40,811 bases of DNA from Candidatus Acidiferrum typicum. GTDB lineage: Bacteria; Acidobacteriota; Terriglobia; Acidiferrales; UBA7541. Position numbers and translations under genes: made by a program. The notes beneath the pieces are model-generated. The model did no database searches, was not told the DNA's origin, and saw nothing but the letters and a program-made list of their open reading frames with translations. Positions 1 through 5,731 of this stretch are shown here, piece after piece. Numbering within the stretch: the first letter of the stretch is position 1; every line of letters starts with the position of its first letter. The stretch covers positions 1 through 40,811 of the forward strand of contig JAOAPV010000025.1 of the NCBI GenBank assembly GCA_025463055.1. The letters are read 5' to 3'.

Positions 1-322
1 GAAAGAGAGTATTGGCGCAGAGCTTCGACAGAAAAATGGCGAATGGATCGGAGACAGAAAGCCGCAACGCGCTGAGTGTGTCGTTCGTTTGCTCGCGCAA
101 AAAGCCCGGCTGCAGCATCAGGGAAGCCGCAAAAAGAAAGGCCAGCCACAGCAGGCCGGGCCCGAAGCGTCGCGACTCTTCTCTCGTAGGATCAAACGTA
201 AAGCTGAACAGCACCACGATCATCAGAATGAAAACGACGGTCGTGGTCAGCAGCTCGCGCGAGCGAAACTCCGTGCGCAGCTCTTTGCCAAGCAGTACGC
301 CCGTGTTGGAGAACAAGCTCAT
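1..322 (-). CDS. ccmB: Heme exporter protein CcmB, 5' part only (runs off the left edge)
   Basis: CcmB is the membrane subunit that works with the CcmA ATPase (and CcmC) to release holo-CcmE during cytochrome c maturation. About 107 N-terminal residues are visible, starting MSLFSNTGVLLGKELRTEFR. The cytoplasmic opening helix with LGKELRTEFRSRELL is typical of the family, and it is followed by two hydrophobic stretches at about residues 26-42 and 58-70. The ATG at 320-322 lies 9 bases after the ccmA stop, so the two are co-transcribed. The frame stays open to the edge of the window. A full CcmB is about 220 residues, so roughly half is missing here only because the window ends. Confidence 0.88.
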   Translation of the reverse strand, partial: MSLFSNTGVLLGKELRTEFRSRELLTTTVVFILMIVVLFSFTFDPTREESRRFGPGLLWLAFLFAASLMLQPGFLREQTNDTLSALRLSVSDPFAIFLSKLCANTLF

Positions 323-331
323 CTAACTTAT

Positions 332-1036
332 CTAGGCATTGGCAAACGTCAGGATGGAATGCAGGCTCGCACCATTTCGCGTGTCGGCGACCACCGCACC
401 GGCGTCCAGGCGTATCGCGCGCGTTGCCACATCGGAAATTTCCGATTCACCGTGCAAGCTCATCAGGATTGTGCAGTCGGCGTCGCGTAAACGCCGCAGG
501 GTCGCCGCCAGCCAACTCACACCTTGCGGATCGAGACCGGTCGCCGGTTCGTCGAGAAGCAAAACGGAAGGCTCGTGCAGCAGCGCGCGCGCAAGCGCTA
601 CGCGCTGGCGCATTCCCCGTGAAAACGTGCGCACCAGCGAATCGCGCCGCTCGAATAGGCCTACATCGCGCAGCAACGACTCGACTCGCTGCGAAGGCTC
701 CGGAATCTCCAGCAGCCGCGCGAAGAGCAGCAGATTTTCCTCCGCGGTCAACTCGTCGTAAACCATCGTGGCGTGCGCCACGAACCCGGTATTTTTGGTC
801 GCCCGCTCGGATTGGTTGGGCGCAGGAGAAAATGTCAGCTTCCCCGCTGACGGCCGCACCAATTGTGCTGCAATCCGCAGCAGCGTGGTCTTGCCTGAGC
901 CGTTGCGGCCCGCAAACGCCACGCACTCGCCCGGCTCGATCTCAAGAGACACACGGCGCAACGCGTAAAGCCCGCCGTATCTTTTGTCGATATTTTCGAG
1001 GCGAAGACCTATGCGGCGCGTTTCCGCGGGCGTCAC
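332..1036 (-). CDS. ccmA: Heme exporter ATP-binding protein CcmA
   Basis: ABC-type ATPase of the cytochrome c maturation system. It couples ATP hydrolysis to release of heme-loaded CcmE from the CcmABCD membrane complex. The 234-residue protein has a Walker A motif GRNGSGKTT at 43-51, an ABC signature variant FSRGMRQR at 138-145, and Walker B VLLLDEP from 158 followed by the D-loop. Family length is about 200-230, so it is complete. The start is GTG with a GAGGG Shine-Dalgarno stretch just upstream. The sequence alone would fit many ABC transporters; the assignment rests on ccmB directly downstream and ccmE/F/H upstream in the same operon. Confidence 0.9.
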   Translation of the reverse strand: MTPAETRRIGLRLENIDKRYGGLYALRRVSLEIEPGECVAFAGRNGSGKTTLLRIAAQLVRPSAGKLTFSPAPNQSERATKNTGFVAHATMVYDELTAEENLLLFARLLEIPEPSQRVESLLRDVGLFERRDSLVRTFSRGMRQRVALARALLHEPSVLLLDEPATGLDPQGVSWLAATLRRLRDADCTILMSLHGESEISDVATRAIRLDAGAVVADTRNGASLHSILTFANA

Positions 1037-1079: not shown

Positions 1080-2321
1080 TTAGCCTCGCACCAGTTCGCG
1101 CAGCACCTTCTCCGCCTGCGCGCGCTCCTGAGCATACTCCTCTTCGGAAATTGTGCCGGCCTGCCGCCGCAGCTCCAGGCGAAACATCTGATCTTTCAGC
1201 GCATCGAGGTTCGAGTCGACAGCAGCATCGACTTGAGAGAGTTTCTTCGACTTCGATGCAGCTTTACCCTTGCCACTTGGCGGAGGGACATCGCCAGCAA
1301 CAGCCATAACCGGTTTGCGCACCAAGAGCATCGCGCCTAGCGCAAAAATTCCCACGAAGCCCGCAATCAGCGGCCACTTCAACACATCCAGCCGCCCAGG
1401 TATCGACTGAATGTTTGCCGCCGCTGCCGCGGCCTGCGCGTCCCGACCGCCTTGTCCACCGCCCCCTCCGGAGCCTTCACTTTGCAGCGGCGGCGCGGTA
1501 CCGGACACATTCACCGCCATTACATTGTTGGCCGGCACATTCTCCCGGCCGTAGACGCTCATGCCCTGCTCTTGTCCGCCACTCTCCAAACCGTCGCCGC
1601 TGATCTGCATAGTCGGCGAAGCCACGACAAGTAGCCGGTCCGCGGGATAAATCGTTGCCACTTTCAGTGTGGCGGCGTTTCCAGGATATGGAACCTCGTA
1701 CGCGTAGCGCATCGTGTTTTGTCCCGGGCGCAGCGCGTAGGCAATGGCGTACTTCCCTTTGCCTTTATCGATCGGAGTTTGCATCACGGGCATGCCGGTC
1801 GGCCCGGAAGCAGCGACCTGCTGCAAATGCGCATTCTCCGGAATCACAAATTCGAAATTGCCGTCGCCACGAAAGTACGCTTGCGGTGGCTGCGAATGAT
1901 TCTGAATCGAATATTCCTCAGCCACAGTTAGGTGGTCGCCACTGGGCTGAAAAAACACAATCCGCGAAACCACCGCAATGATCTTGGGATCCTTAGACGG
2001 CTCGAAAACGCTCACTTCCACGCTGCTATTGCCAGGCGGAACGGGCTGGTGAAAGTTAATTCCCTTGTACACGGCGCGCACCAGCATCGGTTGCGAGCCA
2101 AGCGCCGGATAGTCAAATGAAAATTGCCCTTGGGCATCGGTCTTTGAGTTCGCAACGGGCTGCATTCCGCCTTGCAATTGAATCAATATGACTTCGATGG
2201 CTGATGCTGACTTGCCTGTTGTGCCGTTCTTTACCGTGCCGTGAAGCGTTCCCGCGCGCCCCAACGCCGCAAATAGAAGCAGTGTCGCGAAGCAAATACC
2301 AAAGCTGCGAACTGGTCTCAT
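1080..2321 (-). CDS. Exported, membrane-anchored CnaB-type protein in the ccm operon
   Basis: 413 residues of unknown function. The N-terminus is a signal peptide (MRPVRSFGICFATLLLFAALGRA). Residues about 25-105 look like a carboxypeptidase-regulatory/CnaB-type beta sandwich (GTLHGTVKNGTTGKSASAI, DAQGQFSFDYP). A second beta-rich domain covers about 110-270. A Gly/Ala-rich linker (about 285-308) leads to one transmembrane helix (WPLIAGFVGIFALGAMLLV, about 318-337), then a charged cytoplasmic tail. The tail ends in a helical hairpin of the type RLELRRQAGTISEEEYAQE, very like the hairpin in the gene just upstream. The ATG overlaps the TAA of that gene by one base, so it is part of the operon. 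It sits where proteobacteria have ccmI-type assembly factors, so a role in apocytochrome handling is a guess. Confidence 0.75.
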   Translation of the reverse strand: MRPVRSFGICFATLLLFAALGRAGTLHGTVKNGTTGKSASAIEVILIQLQGGMQPVANSKTDAQGQFSFDYPALGSQPMLVRAVYKGINFHQPVPPGNSSVEVSVFEPSKDPKIIAVVSRIVFFQPSGDHLTVAEEYSIQNHSQPPQAYFRGDGNFEFVIPENAHLQQVAASGPTGMPVMQTPIDKGKGKYAIAYALRPGQNTMRYAYEVPYPGNAATLKVATIYPADRLLVVASPTMQISGDGLESGGQEQGMSVYGRENVPANNVMAVNVSGTAPPLQSEGSGGGGGQGGRDAQAAAAAANIQSIPGRLDVLKWPLIAGFVGIFALGAMLLVRKPVMAVAGDVPPPSGKGKAASKSKKLSQVDAAVDSNLDALKDQMFRLELRRQAGTISEEEYAQERAQAEKVLRELVRG

Positions 2322-2698
2322 TACTGACCACGCTCCGTGTCCGCAGTATGCGGAGCACGCGGGCGACGAACCTGCGAGTCCGTCACCTTCTCAATTTCGG
2401 CCAACACCAACGCCGCTTCGTTCTCAATAGAAGTCTTCATCGCGTCATAGTCGCTTTCGGAATATTTACCCGAGCGAAACTCAAAACGTAAGTCTCGTAA
2501 ATTGTCGTAAATGGTGTCGCGCCGCTCCATCAAGTGGTCCAGCTTGGTGCGATGCGGCGCCAAATCAGAGGCATCCGCTTGGATGTAAAACATAAAAAGA
2601 AGCGTAGCCATAGCCAGCGCCAAGCATGCGCCAAGCACTGCGCCATCTGCTGACGAAATCATAAATATCAATCCGAAATCCAAATAAGCGCCGGCCAT
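2321..2698 (-). CDS. Small CcmI-like membrane protein
   Basis: 125 residues. A hydrophobic helix at about 18-40 (GAVLGACLALAMATLLFMFYI) is followed by a soluble helical region with LMERRDTIYDNLRDLRFEF and SGKYSESDYDAMKTSIENEA. The pattern of a membrane helix followed by L..R...I...L.DL.FE...GK.S..DY resembles the N-terminal part of CcmI/CycH, which passes apocytochrome to the CcmF/H heme lyase. The TPR part of full-length CcmI is absent. It overlaps ccmH upstream and the CnaB-type gene downstream by one base each (TAATG), so translation is probably coupled. The CcmI link is from resemblance and position only. Confidence 0.65.
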   Translation of the reverse strand: MAGAYLDFGLIFMISSADGAVLGACLALAMATLLFMFYIQADASDLAPHRTKLDHLMERRDTIYDNLRDLRFEFRSGKYSESDYDAMKTSIENEAALVLAEIEKVTDSQVRRPRAPHTADTERGQ

Positions 2699-3195
2699 TA
2701 GTCCTCAGTCTCTTGGGTGACGCGGCGCCGGGCGCGCTCCAGATCTTGCGCCGAAATTCCCCGCACTGCACTCACCGTTGCTGCGCGCGGCATCACGCGA
2801 CGCCATTTCCAAATCACGAAAACCACGAGCAGCGTTCCCAGGAGCAGGTAAATGGTCGGCAGGCTCCACGCGACCAGGCTCAGCCCAGATTTCGGCGGCT
2901 CCGCGTACACTTTGGTGCCAAACTCTTGCACAAACCCCGACGTGATCTCCGTCTCAGACTCGCCGCGCGCCACCGCTTCGTCAAGATGTTTCAACATGCT
3001 CGCGGAGGTTGTGCAGCCGACGTGATTGCATTGTGTCAGCACCTGATTGCAGCTGCACATGCACATGAACTTGCCGCCGATTTGCTTGGCGCGATTATCC
3101 GCTTGCTGCGCCTGCAGGTGCGAAGAAAGCAACGCGCTTGAAGAGGCACTGAGCGCAATCACCAGAAAGAAAGCCGCTAAACGCCGTTTAGTCAT
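2698..3195 (-). CDS. ccmH: Cytochrome c maturation protein CcmH, with atypical cysteine motif
   Basis: CcmH is the periplasm-facing thiol protein that prepares apocytochrome CXXCH cysteines for heme attachment by CcmF. I start it at the ATG at 3193-3195, which overlaps the ccmF stop by 8 bases; an upstream start would reach 3267 but adds no hydrophobic leader. The 165-residue product has an N-terminal hydrophobic segment (AAFFLVIALSASSSALL), the motif KFMCMCSCNQVLTQCNHVGC with cysteines at 45, 47, 49, 56 and 61, the family's three-helix region (SMLKHLDEAVARGESETEI), and a C-terminal membrane helix (SLPTIYLLLGTLLVVFVIW). Canonical CcmH has LRCxxCQ; aligned on C45, the second cysteine is replaced by Ser48 with cysteines on either side. 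Confidence 0.87.
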   Translation of the reverse strand: MTKRRLAAFFLVIALSASSSALLSSHLQAQQADNRAKQIGGKFMCMCSCNQVLTQCNHVGCTTSASMLKHLDEAVARGESETEITSGFVQEFGTKVYAEPPKSGLSLVAWSLPTIYLLLGTLLVVFVIWKWRRVMPRAATVSAVRGISAQDLERARRRVTQETED

Positions 3196-5248
3196 GCCCT
3201 TCCCGAAGCGCCACAGAAGGCGCGAGTGTCTGCGCAGAGGCCGGCTGAGCCGCACGTTCAGGGGCACCGGATAAAACCAGTACCGCTCGCCGGTTCGGCA
3301 GCAAGGTCACCAGCGTGCCCAGCACAACGACCAACCCGCCCAGCCAGATCCATTTCACTAGCGGATTCAAATACGCGTGAACCACCGGAGCTTGCGTTTC
3401 CGGGTTCTGTCCCGCGTATACGACATAGAGGTCTTCCCGCAGCGTCGAGTAAATCGCGACCATCGTGCCTGACTGTTCGTTGGTCTGGAAAAAGCGCCGC
3501 TCCGGGTACAACATCATCAGCGGCTTGTTGTCGCGCCATACTTCCACGATCATGCGCTCGGAAGTGTAATTCTTCTCCACCTTGGAATCGAAACCTTGCA
3601 GCAGCAGCTTGTAACCGCCAATCTGAAGGGTCGAGCCTGGCTGCATGTCTTTCTGCGCGTCGCGATTGAATGCCGCGCCCGCCAGCCCCACGAAAATCAG
3701 CACCATGCCCATGTGTACGATGTATCCGCCGTAGCGGCGCGTGTTGCGCATGGTGAGGTCGACAGCAGAAGCGAGGAACGACGCGCCAGACCGTGAGCGA
3801 ATCACACGCGCGCCGCGGAAAAATTCCATGCCGATCGTCGAAGTCACAAATACACAAAGGATCAGGCACACCAGCGAGAAAAACTCGCGCAGTCCCAAAG
3901 CAAAAAAGACAACCCCGGCCAACAAACCAATTACAAGAGGCCAACCAAAATTGCGCTTTAAGCTATCAGTGGAAGTTTTGCGCCAAGCGAGCAGCGGCCC
4001 CACACCGGTGAGAAACAGAAGCAGCAATCCGATCGGAACGTTCACCTTGTTAAAGAACGGCGCCCCCACGCTGATGCGCGAACCGGAAAACCATTCCGAA
4101 AATACCGGAAACAGCGTCCCCGAAAGCACGGCGATGCAGGAGACCAGTAAAATCAAATTGTTAAATAGAAAGCTCGATTCGCGCGACACCATCGAGTCCA
4201 GTTGATTCTCGCTCTTGAGGTAGTCGCGATTTTTCAGGTAAGCCACAAAGCAGACGGCGAAAATCAGCAGCAAAAATCCAACAAAGTAGTTCCCGATGCT
4301 CGACTGCGCAAAAGCATGAACCGAGCTGACCACACCGCTGCGCGTCAGTAAAGTCCCCAGGATGCATAGCATGAATGTAGTGAACACCAGCCAGACGTTC
4401 CACACCTTCATCATGCCGCGCTTTTCCTGCATCATCACCGAATGCAGAAAGGCGGTGCCGGTCAGCCAGGGCAGAAGCGACGCGTTCTCTACGGGATCCC
4501 AGCCCCAGTAACCGCCCCAGCCCAACACGGCGTAAGCCCAATGCGCGCCGAGCAAAATACCCATGGTCTGGAAGCACCACGCGATCATCGTCCACTTGCG
4601 CGTCAGGTGAATCCATTTTTCTCCAGGATAGCGAGCCAGCAGCGCACCCAGCGCAAACGCAAACGGAATCGTAAATCCGGTGTAGCCGGAATAAAGATTC
4701 GGCGGATGGATCACCATCTCCGGATATTGCAGCAGCGGAGTCAGACCGTTGCCATCCGCGCGAGTGAAAATCTCGAGCGTGCCATTCGCGCCCGTAGAAG
4801 CCAGCACCTTGAACGGGCTGGCCACAAAATTATTTAGTGTAAGAAAGAAAATCTGCACGCCGGCTAGCACCACACCGACGTATGGCATCAACTCTCCGTT
4901 TTTATTGCGGTAGACCAGCAGAACGGAAAAAACGTAAATGGCGAGCAGAAAACTCCAGAAAAGGAGCGAGCCTTCCTGCCCCGACCAGAGCGCGGCAATC
5001 TTATAGAAGGTCGCCAGATCGCGATTGCTGTGAGCGACCACATACGAAACCCAGTAGCTATCGCTGAAAAATAGGTAAACAAGGCTGGCGGTGGCGAGGA
5101 AAATCAGCCCGCAGGTAGCAATCCCGGCTTGCCGCGCGCTCTTGACCAGCAGCGGATGGCGCGTGCGAATCGCGAAGATGCCGCCAACAAAGGCGTATCC
5201 CGCGCACAAAAACGCAAGGAGCAACGCAAAGGAACCAAAAACATCCAC
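3188..5248 (-). CDS. ccmF: Cytochrome c heme lyase CcmF
   Basis: Multi-spanning membrane heme lyase that joins heme from holo-CcmE to apocytochrome c on the outer face of the inner membrane. 686 residues, as expected for CcmF/NrfE. The tryptophan-rich WWD-type motif GWGGYWGWDPVENASLLPWL lies near residues 240-262, flanked by many hydrophobic helices. A large periplasmic domain occurs near the C-terminus before a last helix (WLGGLVVVLGTLVTLL). The start is GTG, preceded by AAGGTGG at good spacing. It lies 51 bases after ccmE and its stop overlaps the start of ccmH, so it is mid-operon. Confidence 0.95.
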   Translation of the reverse strand: MDVFGSFALLLAFLCAGYAFVGGIFAIRTRHPLLVKSARQAGIATCGLIFLATASLVYLFFSDSYWVSYVVAHSNRDLATFYKIAALWSGQEGSLLFWSFLLAIYVFSVLLVYRNKNGELMPYVGVVLAGVQIFFLTLNNFVASPFKVLASTGANGTLEIFTRADGNGLTPLLQYPEMVIHPPNLYSGYTGFTIPFAFALGALLARYPGEKWIHLTRKWTMIAWCFQTMGILLGAHWAYAVLGWGGYWGWDPVENASLLPWLTGTAFLHSVMMQEKRGMMKVWNVWLVFTTFMLCILGTLLTRSGVVSSVHAFAQSSIGNYFVGFLLLIFAVCFVAYLKNRDYLKSENQLDSMVSRESSFLFNNLILLVSCIAVLSGTLFPVFSEWFSGSRISVGAPFFNKVNVPIGLLLLFLTGVGPLLAWRKTSTDSLKRNFGWPLVIGLLAGVVFFALGLREFFSLVCLILCVFVTSTIGMEFFRGARVIRSRSGASFLASAVDLTMRNTRRYGGYIVHMGMVLIFVGLAGAAFNRDAQKDMQPGSTLQIGGYKLLLQGFDSKVEKNYTSERMIVEVWRDNKPLMMLYPERRFFQTNEQSGTMVAIYSTLREDLYVVYAGQNPETQAPVVHAYLNPLVKWIWLGGLVVVLGTLVTLLPNRRAVLVLSGAPERAAQPASAQTLAPSVALREGHD

Positions 5249-5299: not shown

Positions 5300-5731
5300 C
5301 TACATTGTGCTGGGTTTCTCCGAACCCGGCTTCGCGTCGCCGCCGGGCGCTGCTTCGTATTTCGACGCGCACTTGGCCTGGACGTGCTCGGCTACAAAAC
5401 TCCCATTGTTCGCCAAACTGCCTTCCACCAGCGCTTGCGATTTGTCCACAAACGTATCCGGCAGCGGCTCGTTACCCACGTAACTTACCGGCAGCAACTT
5501 CCCTTCTCCCGCCAGAACGAAATCCACTCGCCCGGACAGCCGTTTGATTGTCCCGGGCTCAACGGTCCCGCCCACGCGGAGCCGATGTGCGCGCGCCGTG
5601 CCATGCAAGGTCTGCAACTCAGCAATGGTGTGGTAGTACGTCTTGCTTTCGCCATACCCCAGCCAGGCAAGGAAACCCATGGACACAACGATAATCCCGA
5701 TGCCTATGCCAAATTTTGTGCGCTTATGCAT
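5300..5731 (-). CDS. ccmE: Heme chaperone CcmE, CXXXY type
   Basis: Periplasmic heme chaperone that binds heme covalently and hands it to CcmF. 143 residues: an N-terminal membrane anchor (GIGIGIIVVSMGFLAWLGYG, about 8-27), then the OB-fold (LRVGGTVEPGTIKR, VDFVLAGEGKLLPVSYVG, LVEGSLANNGSFVAEHVQAK) and a short flexible tail. The heme-binding site of the usual form is HXXXY; here the aligned residues are C121-A-S-K-Y125, preceded by the same AK dipeptide seen before the E. coli histidine. The cysteine type is known from archaea and some sulfate reducers. AGGAG lies 8 bases before the ATG. It is the first gene of the ccm operon as seen here. Confidence 0.93.
   Translation of the reverse strand: MHKRTKFGIGIGIIVVSMGFLAWLGYGESKTYYHTIAELQTLHGTARAHRLRVGGTVEPGTIKRLSGRVDFVLAGEGKLLPVSYVGNEPLPDTFVDKSQALVEGSLANNGSFVAEHVQAKCASKYEAAPGGDAKPGSEKPSTM

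Follow-up and report, generated by a model that had tools for sequence, protein, structure and literature searches.

Two questions are raised by the ccm operon in this stretch of DNA: whether a CcmE with cysteine in place of the heme-binding histidine (CXXXY for HXXXY) is out of place next to a CcmH, and whether the two proteins are matched to each other. The window, meaning the whole stretch analysed, was an entire contig of 40,811 bp (C59) that ended inside ccmB, and it belonged to a genome assembled into 146 contigs (5.33 Mb). Sequence homology, the residue at the heme site, gene order and distribution were read directly. The features of the window concerned were the following.

5300..5731, minus strand: ccmE, Cys-type heme chaperone, 143 aa (PF03100, E 4.8e-21; aligned to 8ce8, 1sr3, 1j6q and 2kct)
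5357..5371, minus strand: CASKY motif, with C121 as the heme-attachment residue and Y125 as the axial Tyr, both by homology (alignment to E. coli H130...Y134; Cys in 81/95 acidobacterial genomes)
3188..5248, minus strand: ccmF, heme lyase with WGGYWGWDPVEN motif (PF16327, E 9.9e-64; PF01578, E 2.5e-34)
2698..3195, minus strand: ccmH-family gene, cysteine-rich variant (PF03918, E 1.4e-17)
3013..3063, minus strand: CcmH cysteine cluster C45-M-C47-S-C49-x6-C56-x4-C61, where LRCxxC is expected
2321..2698, minus strand: 125-aa membrane protein, often found here in Cys-type operons (by eye similar to the N-terminal part of CcmI)
1080..2321, minus strand: 413-aa protein with a carboxypeptidase-regulatory-like N-terminus (PF13620, below cut-off)
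332..1036, minus strand: ccmA, ABC ATPase (TIGR01189, 133.0 bits, cut-off 131.6)
2..322, minus strand: 5' part of ccmB, truncated where the contig stops (the fragment matched TIGR01190 at E 2e-09)

The window encodes a CcmE of the cysteine type

The ccmE open reading frame ran from an ATG at 5731 down to 5300 on the minus strand; the first-pass annotation had given no strand, and the plus strand of 5300-5731 carried another reading frame. The protein belonged to the CcmE family, with a PF03100 score of 75.4 bits (cut-off 24.6) over residues 31-127. When aligned by HMMER, H130-D-E-N-Y134 of E. coli CcmE (PDB 8ce8_E and 1sr3) fell on C121-A-S-K-Y125 of the window protein, and the cysteine of D. 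vulgaris CcmE (2kct) fell on C121 in a weak match (E 0.19). The first-pass annotation had named these same residues, preceded by an AK dipeptide, and had placed the protein in the known CXXXY type. Its numbering was right and the dipeptide is present; the comparison it had proposed placed Cys rather than His at the heme site against both proteins (weakly for 2kct), and the assignment to the Cys type was supported by the alignment and by the survey below.

The surroundings of the site carried the same signal. Of 189 rows in the CcmE alignment, 101 had Cys at the site; P or A followed in 100 of these, S or T came next in all 101, and K or R stood ahead of the Tyr/Phe place in 100. This pattern was unlike that of the His type, and the CASK of the window fitted it. 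A further position, T93 of the window (in PDTF), also tracked the type, being mostly T, N or I in Cys rows and mostly L or M in His rows. Compared to the System I* known from archaea and Desulfovibrio (Allen 2006; Goddard 2010; as cited in PMC3601427), this genome had the same Cys in the HXXXY place, a C-x-S-K-Y motif and the CcmABCEF proteins, but CASKY instead of the commoner CPSKY. The cysteine noticed in this ccmE is real, it was read correctly, and the gene is an ordinary member of System I*.

Gene order and the remainder of the genome

On the minus strand the genes followed each other as ccmE, ccmF, the ccmH-family gene, the 125-aa membrane protein, the 413-aa protein, ccmA and the start of ccmB. 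The operon had been described as an otherwise full ccmEFH...AB; the E-F-H..A order was found as described, but ccmB is incomplete, the contig ending inside it. The ccmA product also scored higher with other ABC models, none of which reached its own cut-off. For ccmH we chose the ATG at 3195 as the start, a GTG at 3267 giving the longest open reading frame. The 125-aa protein (2321..2698) had no significant family match in the model library, and the C-terminal helix of the 413-aa protein showed a very weak likeness to CcmI (TIGR03142, E 0.16). Between ccmH and ccmA these two proteins occupy 1080-2698 (minus strand), and Cys-type loci from Acidobacteriota, Chloroflexota and one Bacillus had relatives at the equivalent place.

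We compared gene order among loci with ccmE and ccmB on one strand, some genomes being entered twice. Among Cys-type loci 67 of 83 had ccmB downstream of ccmE, versus 4 of 70 among His-type loci, and the E-F-H..A-B order of the window is the one usual for Cys-type clusters. The His-type System I, as in E. coli, has the same set of proteins with the same roles, but it has His at the site, other residues after it, and ccmAB upstream of ccmE, as seen for ccmB in 66 of the 70 His-type loci.

The System I* set CcmABCEF was found in this genome, with A, B (in part), E and F in the window and C on a second contig, C79. This contig carried the remainder of a ccmB (recognised by eye), ccmC (TIGR01191, E 2.7e-36, 125.2 bits, under the cut-off of 186), a weak CcmD-like stretch (TIGR04391, E 0.1) and the ferrochelatase gene hemH (TIGR00109, E 7.1e-84). 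The ends of the two contigs matched in ccmB (window 3-155 against 2510-2662 of L423, on C79); because the identity was only 92% over these 153 bases, C79 and its ccmC may come from a sister strain, and the match may point to mixed strains in the assembly. The genome gave one CcmE match, one PF03918 match and no ResB match at E 0.001, so that the ccm set, with a CcmC on C79, is its only recognised maturation system. A third PF01578 match of the genome was located on contig C55.

Cysteine is the commoner heme-site residue in the Acidobacteriota genomes read

PF03100 was present in 186 of 297 genomes drawn from Acidobacteriota. The heme site was inspected in 97 of the 186, a chosen and non-random sample made up of the 30 best-scoring matches, family representatives and 22 others, mostly low-scoring; G252 and G282, whose sites were unreadable, were left out. 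The site was Cys in 81 and His in 14 of the 95 genomes read, with Cys genomes in 52 and His genomes in 4 of 56 families and no family mixed. The window's own class contained 33 genomes with a PF03100 match, of which 12 were read (its own included), all with Cys. Given Cys in 81 of 95 genomes, C121 of the window is not a chance change. The Cys type was already known, and the window gene adds little to it; what the survey adds is that it is the commoner form in the Acidobacteriota genomes read.

To set this beside a sample unselected for CcmE or CcmH, public genomes were scanned with a CcmF DNA pattern, which gave at least 118 loci. CcmE was readable in 101 of those listed, with Cys in 29 and His in 72, and the Cys type is thus widespread. 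Among the loci listed, Cys occurred in Acidobacteriota (6), Chloroflexota (5), Ignavibacteriota (4), Myxococcota (3), Bacillota (2) and others, and 61 of the 72 His loci were from Pseudomonadota; in a further 17, each from Pseudomonadota, no CcmE lay within reach. Two records call for a remark. A Coriobacteriales frame of 242 aa (L249/L253, G314:C144:1460-2059) held two CcmE matches, one without the motif and one with CPSKY, and a record titled as a Klebsiella pneumoniae MAG (L226) carried a CcmF that grouped with rows of the Myxococcota sample, its title being probably wrong.

The CcmH-family protein beside ccmF is a cysteine-rich variant

Absence of CcmH was a criterion for System I* in the title of a 2006 paper (Allen 2006, through PMC3601427); this genome has one PF03918 protein, encoded next to ccmF. 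In the 2011 review (PMC3601427), about one third of bacteria with System I* CcmE contain CcmH and its absence is not characteristic, so that the window resembles that third. Among archaea, CcmH was reported only from Ferroglobus in PMC4429474. We considered a CcmH beside a Cys-type CcmE as an oddity in itself, as the first-pass annotation had when it called this an unusual context for CXXXY, and rejected the idea on the strength of the review's one third and of 78 Cys-type CcmE/CcmH pairs found here.

That annotation was correct in that the operon has a CcmH: the protein is a member of PF03918 (63.7 bits, cut-off 25). It had overlooked the form, which is not that of the textbook, FMCMCSCNQVLTQCNHVGC (with FMCMCSC) standing in place of LRCxxCQ. 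The active-site loop held five cysteines, a form common to many Acidobacteriota; a four-Cys form of the cysteine-rich protein was seen in Chloroflexota. Compared to canonical CcmH (P. aeruginosa 2hl7, E. coli 2kw0), the window protein is of the same family and its AlphaFold model matches in fold. Both active-site Cys positions were kept in the profile alignment, in which the profile of the window protein's relatives matched 2hl7 at E 1.3e-11 and 2kw0 at E 8.4e-10, but the first Cys was not preceded by LR, the spacing between the two was longer by one residue and included an additional Cys, and two more cysteines came after the pair. The model (pLDDT 89.4, pTM 0.55) had 2hl7 and 2kw0 as its best PDB matches, with Foldseek probability 1.00 and TM by target of 0.71 and 0.63, at E values of only 9.5e-3 and 3.4e-2 and with no match under 0.001; it predicts the helical fold of a CcmH domain. 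An alignment of 32 sequences (Acidobacteriota, Chloroflexota and one Bacillus), all picked for their extra cysteines, showed no variation at C45, C49 and C56.

A cysteine-rich CcmH that lacks LRCXXC has a published precedent. According to PMC4600277, the CcmH-like proteins of Geoglobus and Ferroglobus have C-x-C motifs and no LRCXXC, and they are encoded beside ccmF in organisms with a CXXXY CcmE, as in the window. They differ in being archaeal and in flanking a second ccmF, and the likeness is one of description, not of alignment. The CcmH variant is the part of this locus worth keeping, a modest lead that may deserve a test. In-frame CcmF-CcmH fusions were seen in L051, L058, L065, L072, L073, L278 and L380, in frames of 592 to 1266 aa, some of them cut or lengthened by the stretch.

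Cysteine-rich CcmH accompanies Cys-type CcmE in one direction only

For each CcmE, the best CcmH-family protein found in its own locus or genome was taken as the partner, and CcmH was defined as cysteine-rich if it had four or more Cys within 25 residues. This gave 161 pairs, near relatives included, which are not independent. All 83 His-type CcmE were paired with a plain CXXC CcmH and none with a cysteine-rich one. The 78 Cys-type CcmE were paired with a cysteine-rich CcmH in 51 cases (40 Acidobacteriota, 10 Chloroflexota, 1 Bacillus), with a plain CXXC CcmH in 17 (16 Chloroflexota and one unranked genome whose CcmH was not near ccmF) and with another form in 10. The cysteine-rich form thus went one way only, with Cys-type CcmE and never with His-type CcmE. 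Six Chloroflexota loci had an LRCP[VI]CQ protein, the exact LRCPxCQ, beside a Cys-type CcmE.

A survey of Acidobacteriota for Cys or His together with CcmH had also been proposed by the first-pass annotation. Besides the 81 of 95 genomes with Cys, it yielded 40 Cys pairs with cysteine-rich CcmH (38 of them with this protein in the CcmE or CcmF locus; L269 and L270 had it away from ccmF), 6 Cys pairs whose CcmH was of the other form and lay away from ccm genes, and 9 His pairs, all plain. Among the 10 proteins of other form, nine had Ala or Ser for the first Cys (APCC, SPCC, SPFC, SLCP) and lay in loci without a CcmF or CcmE match; the tenth (L420) had an ambiguous motif. PF03918 proteins with Ser or Ala for the first Cys (SPYCPG..C or APCCW-like) were seen in stretches without a CcmE or CcmF match (L358-L379; L255-L258, L267, L273 and L277). 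Of 33 acidobacterial genomes searched whole, the window's own included and most picked for having no CcmH near ccmE, 12 gave no PF03918 match. CcmH without a readable CcmE partner was left unpaired in 24 of 40 stretches from the phylum of G304, in 8 of 40 Chloroflexota stretches and in several pattern loci.

Two stricter rules were tried and dropped. A strict covariation of the CcmE residue with the CcmH motif looked complete in Acidobacteriota and failed in Chloroflexota. A tie between the Arg of LRC and His-type CcmE also failed, an Acidimicrobiales His type (L117/L251) having IAC and Chloroflexota His types having LDC, VAC, LAC or LKC.

Common descent would account for the pairing as well as function would

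We further mapped both traits on a CcmF tree of 202 rows built with fasttree, in which the row nearest to the window was a Candidatus Acidiferrales bacterium (L171; Acidobacteriota, Terriglobia) at 69% identity. The CcmE residue required 4 changes over the 202 rows, compared to a mean of 67 when shuffled, and the cysteine-rich CcmH required 4 changes over 140 rows. The tree left only three to four independent pairs; none of them ran the opposite way, and a sign test did not reach significance.

The link between Cys-type CcmE and cysteine-rich CcmH probably reflects only the shared ancestry of one operon lineage. Both traits were strongly clustered on the tree, and gene order split largely along the Cys/His division too, although the reverse combination, His-type CcmE with cysteine-rich CcmH, was found in 0 of 161 pairs and the independent pairs offered no opposite case. 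With about four changes per trait and 16 Chloroflexota pairs of Cys-type CcmE and plain CcmH, shared ancestry explains the pattern equally well. The pairing is real as a count and is indistinguishable from common descent.

A more tentative explanation is that the two proteins are functionally matched: CcmH would use its additional thiols to help cleave or take over the cysteine-heme link, or to bind a metal or cluster with that activity. It would fit the 51 of 78 versus 0 of 83 cysteine-rich partners, the division within Acidobacteriota, the three cysteines that were invariant even if in sequences picked as cysteine-rich, and the in-frame fusions, all seven of which carried a cysteine-rich CcmH. 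It is weakened by the 17 Cys-type CcmE with plain CXXC CcmH, six of them the exact LRCPxCQ, by the 12 of 33 whole-searched genomes without a PF03918 match, and by the few independent pairs on the tree. A dedicated role of this CcmH with Cys-type CcmE is therefore possible, and shared ancestry alone is more likely. If the pairing is functional, it would bear on how the stable cysteine-heme bond is broken in System I*, which the 2011 review (PMC3601427) gave as an open question.

Proposed heme relay and the cysteine-heme bond

We consider it about 88% probable that the window gene is a Cys-type CcmE of System I* in which C121 stands in for His, Y125 is a ligand and heme is relayed from CcmC to CcmE to CcmF. 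We propose heme binding to this cysteine, and each step of the transfer, by analogy with work on M. acetivorans, Desulfovibrio and E. coli; our literature searches found no biochemistry on any acidobacterial CcmE. By this analogy, CcmC would load heme onto CcmE, where C121 would replace the His that is covalently bound to a heme vinyl group and form a thioether or related cysteine-heme link, with Y125 as the likely axial ligand. CcmAB, joined by CcmD if that is what the weak CcmD-like stretch encodes, would release holo-CcmE, which would pass its heme to CcmF with the cysteine-rich CcmH alongside, and CcmF would attach the heme to CXXCH apocytochromes.

A covalent bond at C121 is not certain, because a report on D. 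vulgaris CcmE describes ferric heme bound non-covalently by its Cys, C127 (PMC3884852), and the cysteine of the window might likewise hold heme by thiolate coordination only. We regard this as unlikely: Desulfovibrio Cys-type CcmE was described as binding heme covalently, in an operon that works without CcmH in E. coli (PMC3601427), and C120 of M. acetivorans CcmE was needed for holo-CcmE, the C120A mutant giving no heme-stained CcmE band (PMC9084895). It is highly improbable that heme sits at H116, which the first-pass annotation had named as an alternative, or at another residue with C121 incidental, given that C121 is conserved, that E. coli has Glu at the place of H116 (8ce8/1sr3), and that His occurred there in 263 CcmE rows only in the window (entered twice, also as L001) and in one other CcmE (L094), so that H116 is no conserved heme site.

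Four Chloroflexota loci (L390, L395, L398 and L407) had His at the CcmE site (KHGPEF, KHDARF and similar) together with Cys-type gene order, and on the CcmF tree these and L389 were His-site rows nested among Cys-type rows. Laboratory swaps of Cys and His at the CcmE site were not tolerated. These Chloroflexota are possible natural switches between Cys and His inside a Cys-type operon. The place of window T93 was L or M in all five of their CcmE rows. CcmF was also compared for compensatory sites: of 13 columns that split the Cys and His types, the five rows clearly kept the Cys-type residue at 5 and had the His-type residue at 1 (window S325), the rest being mixed or different.
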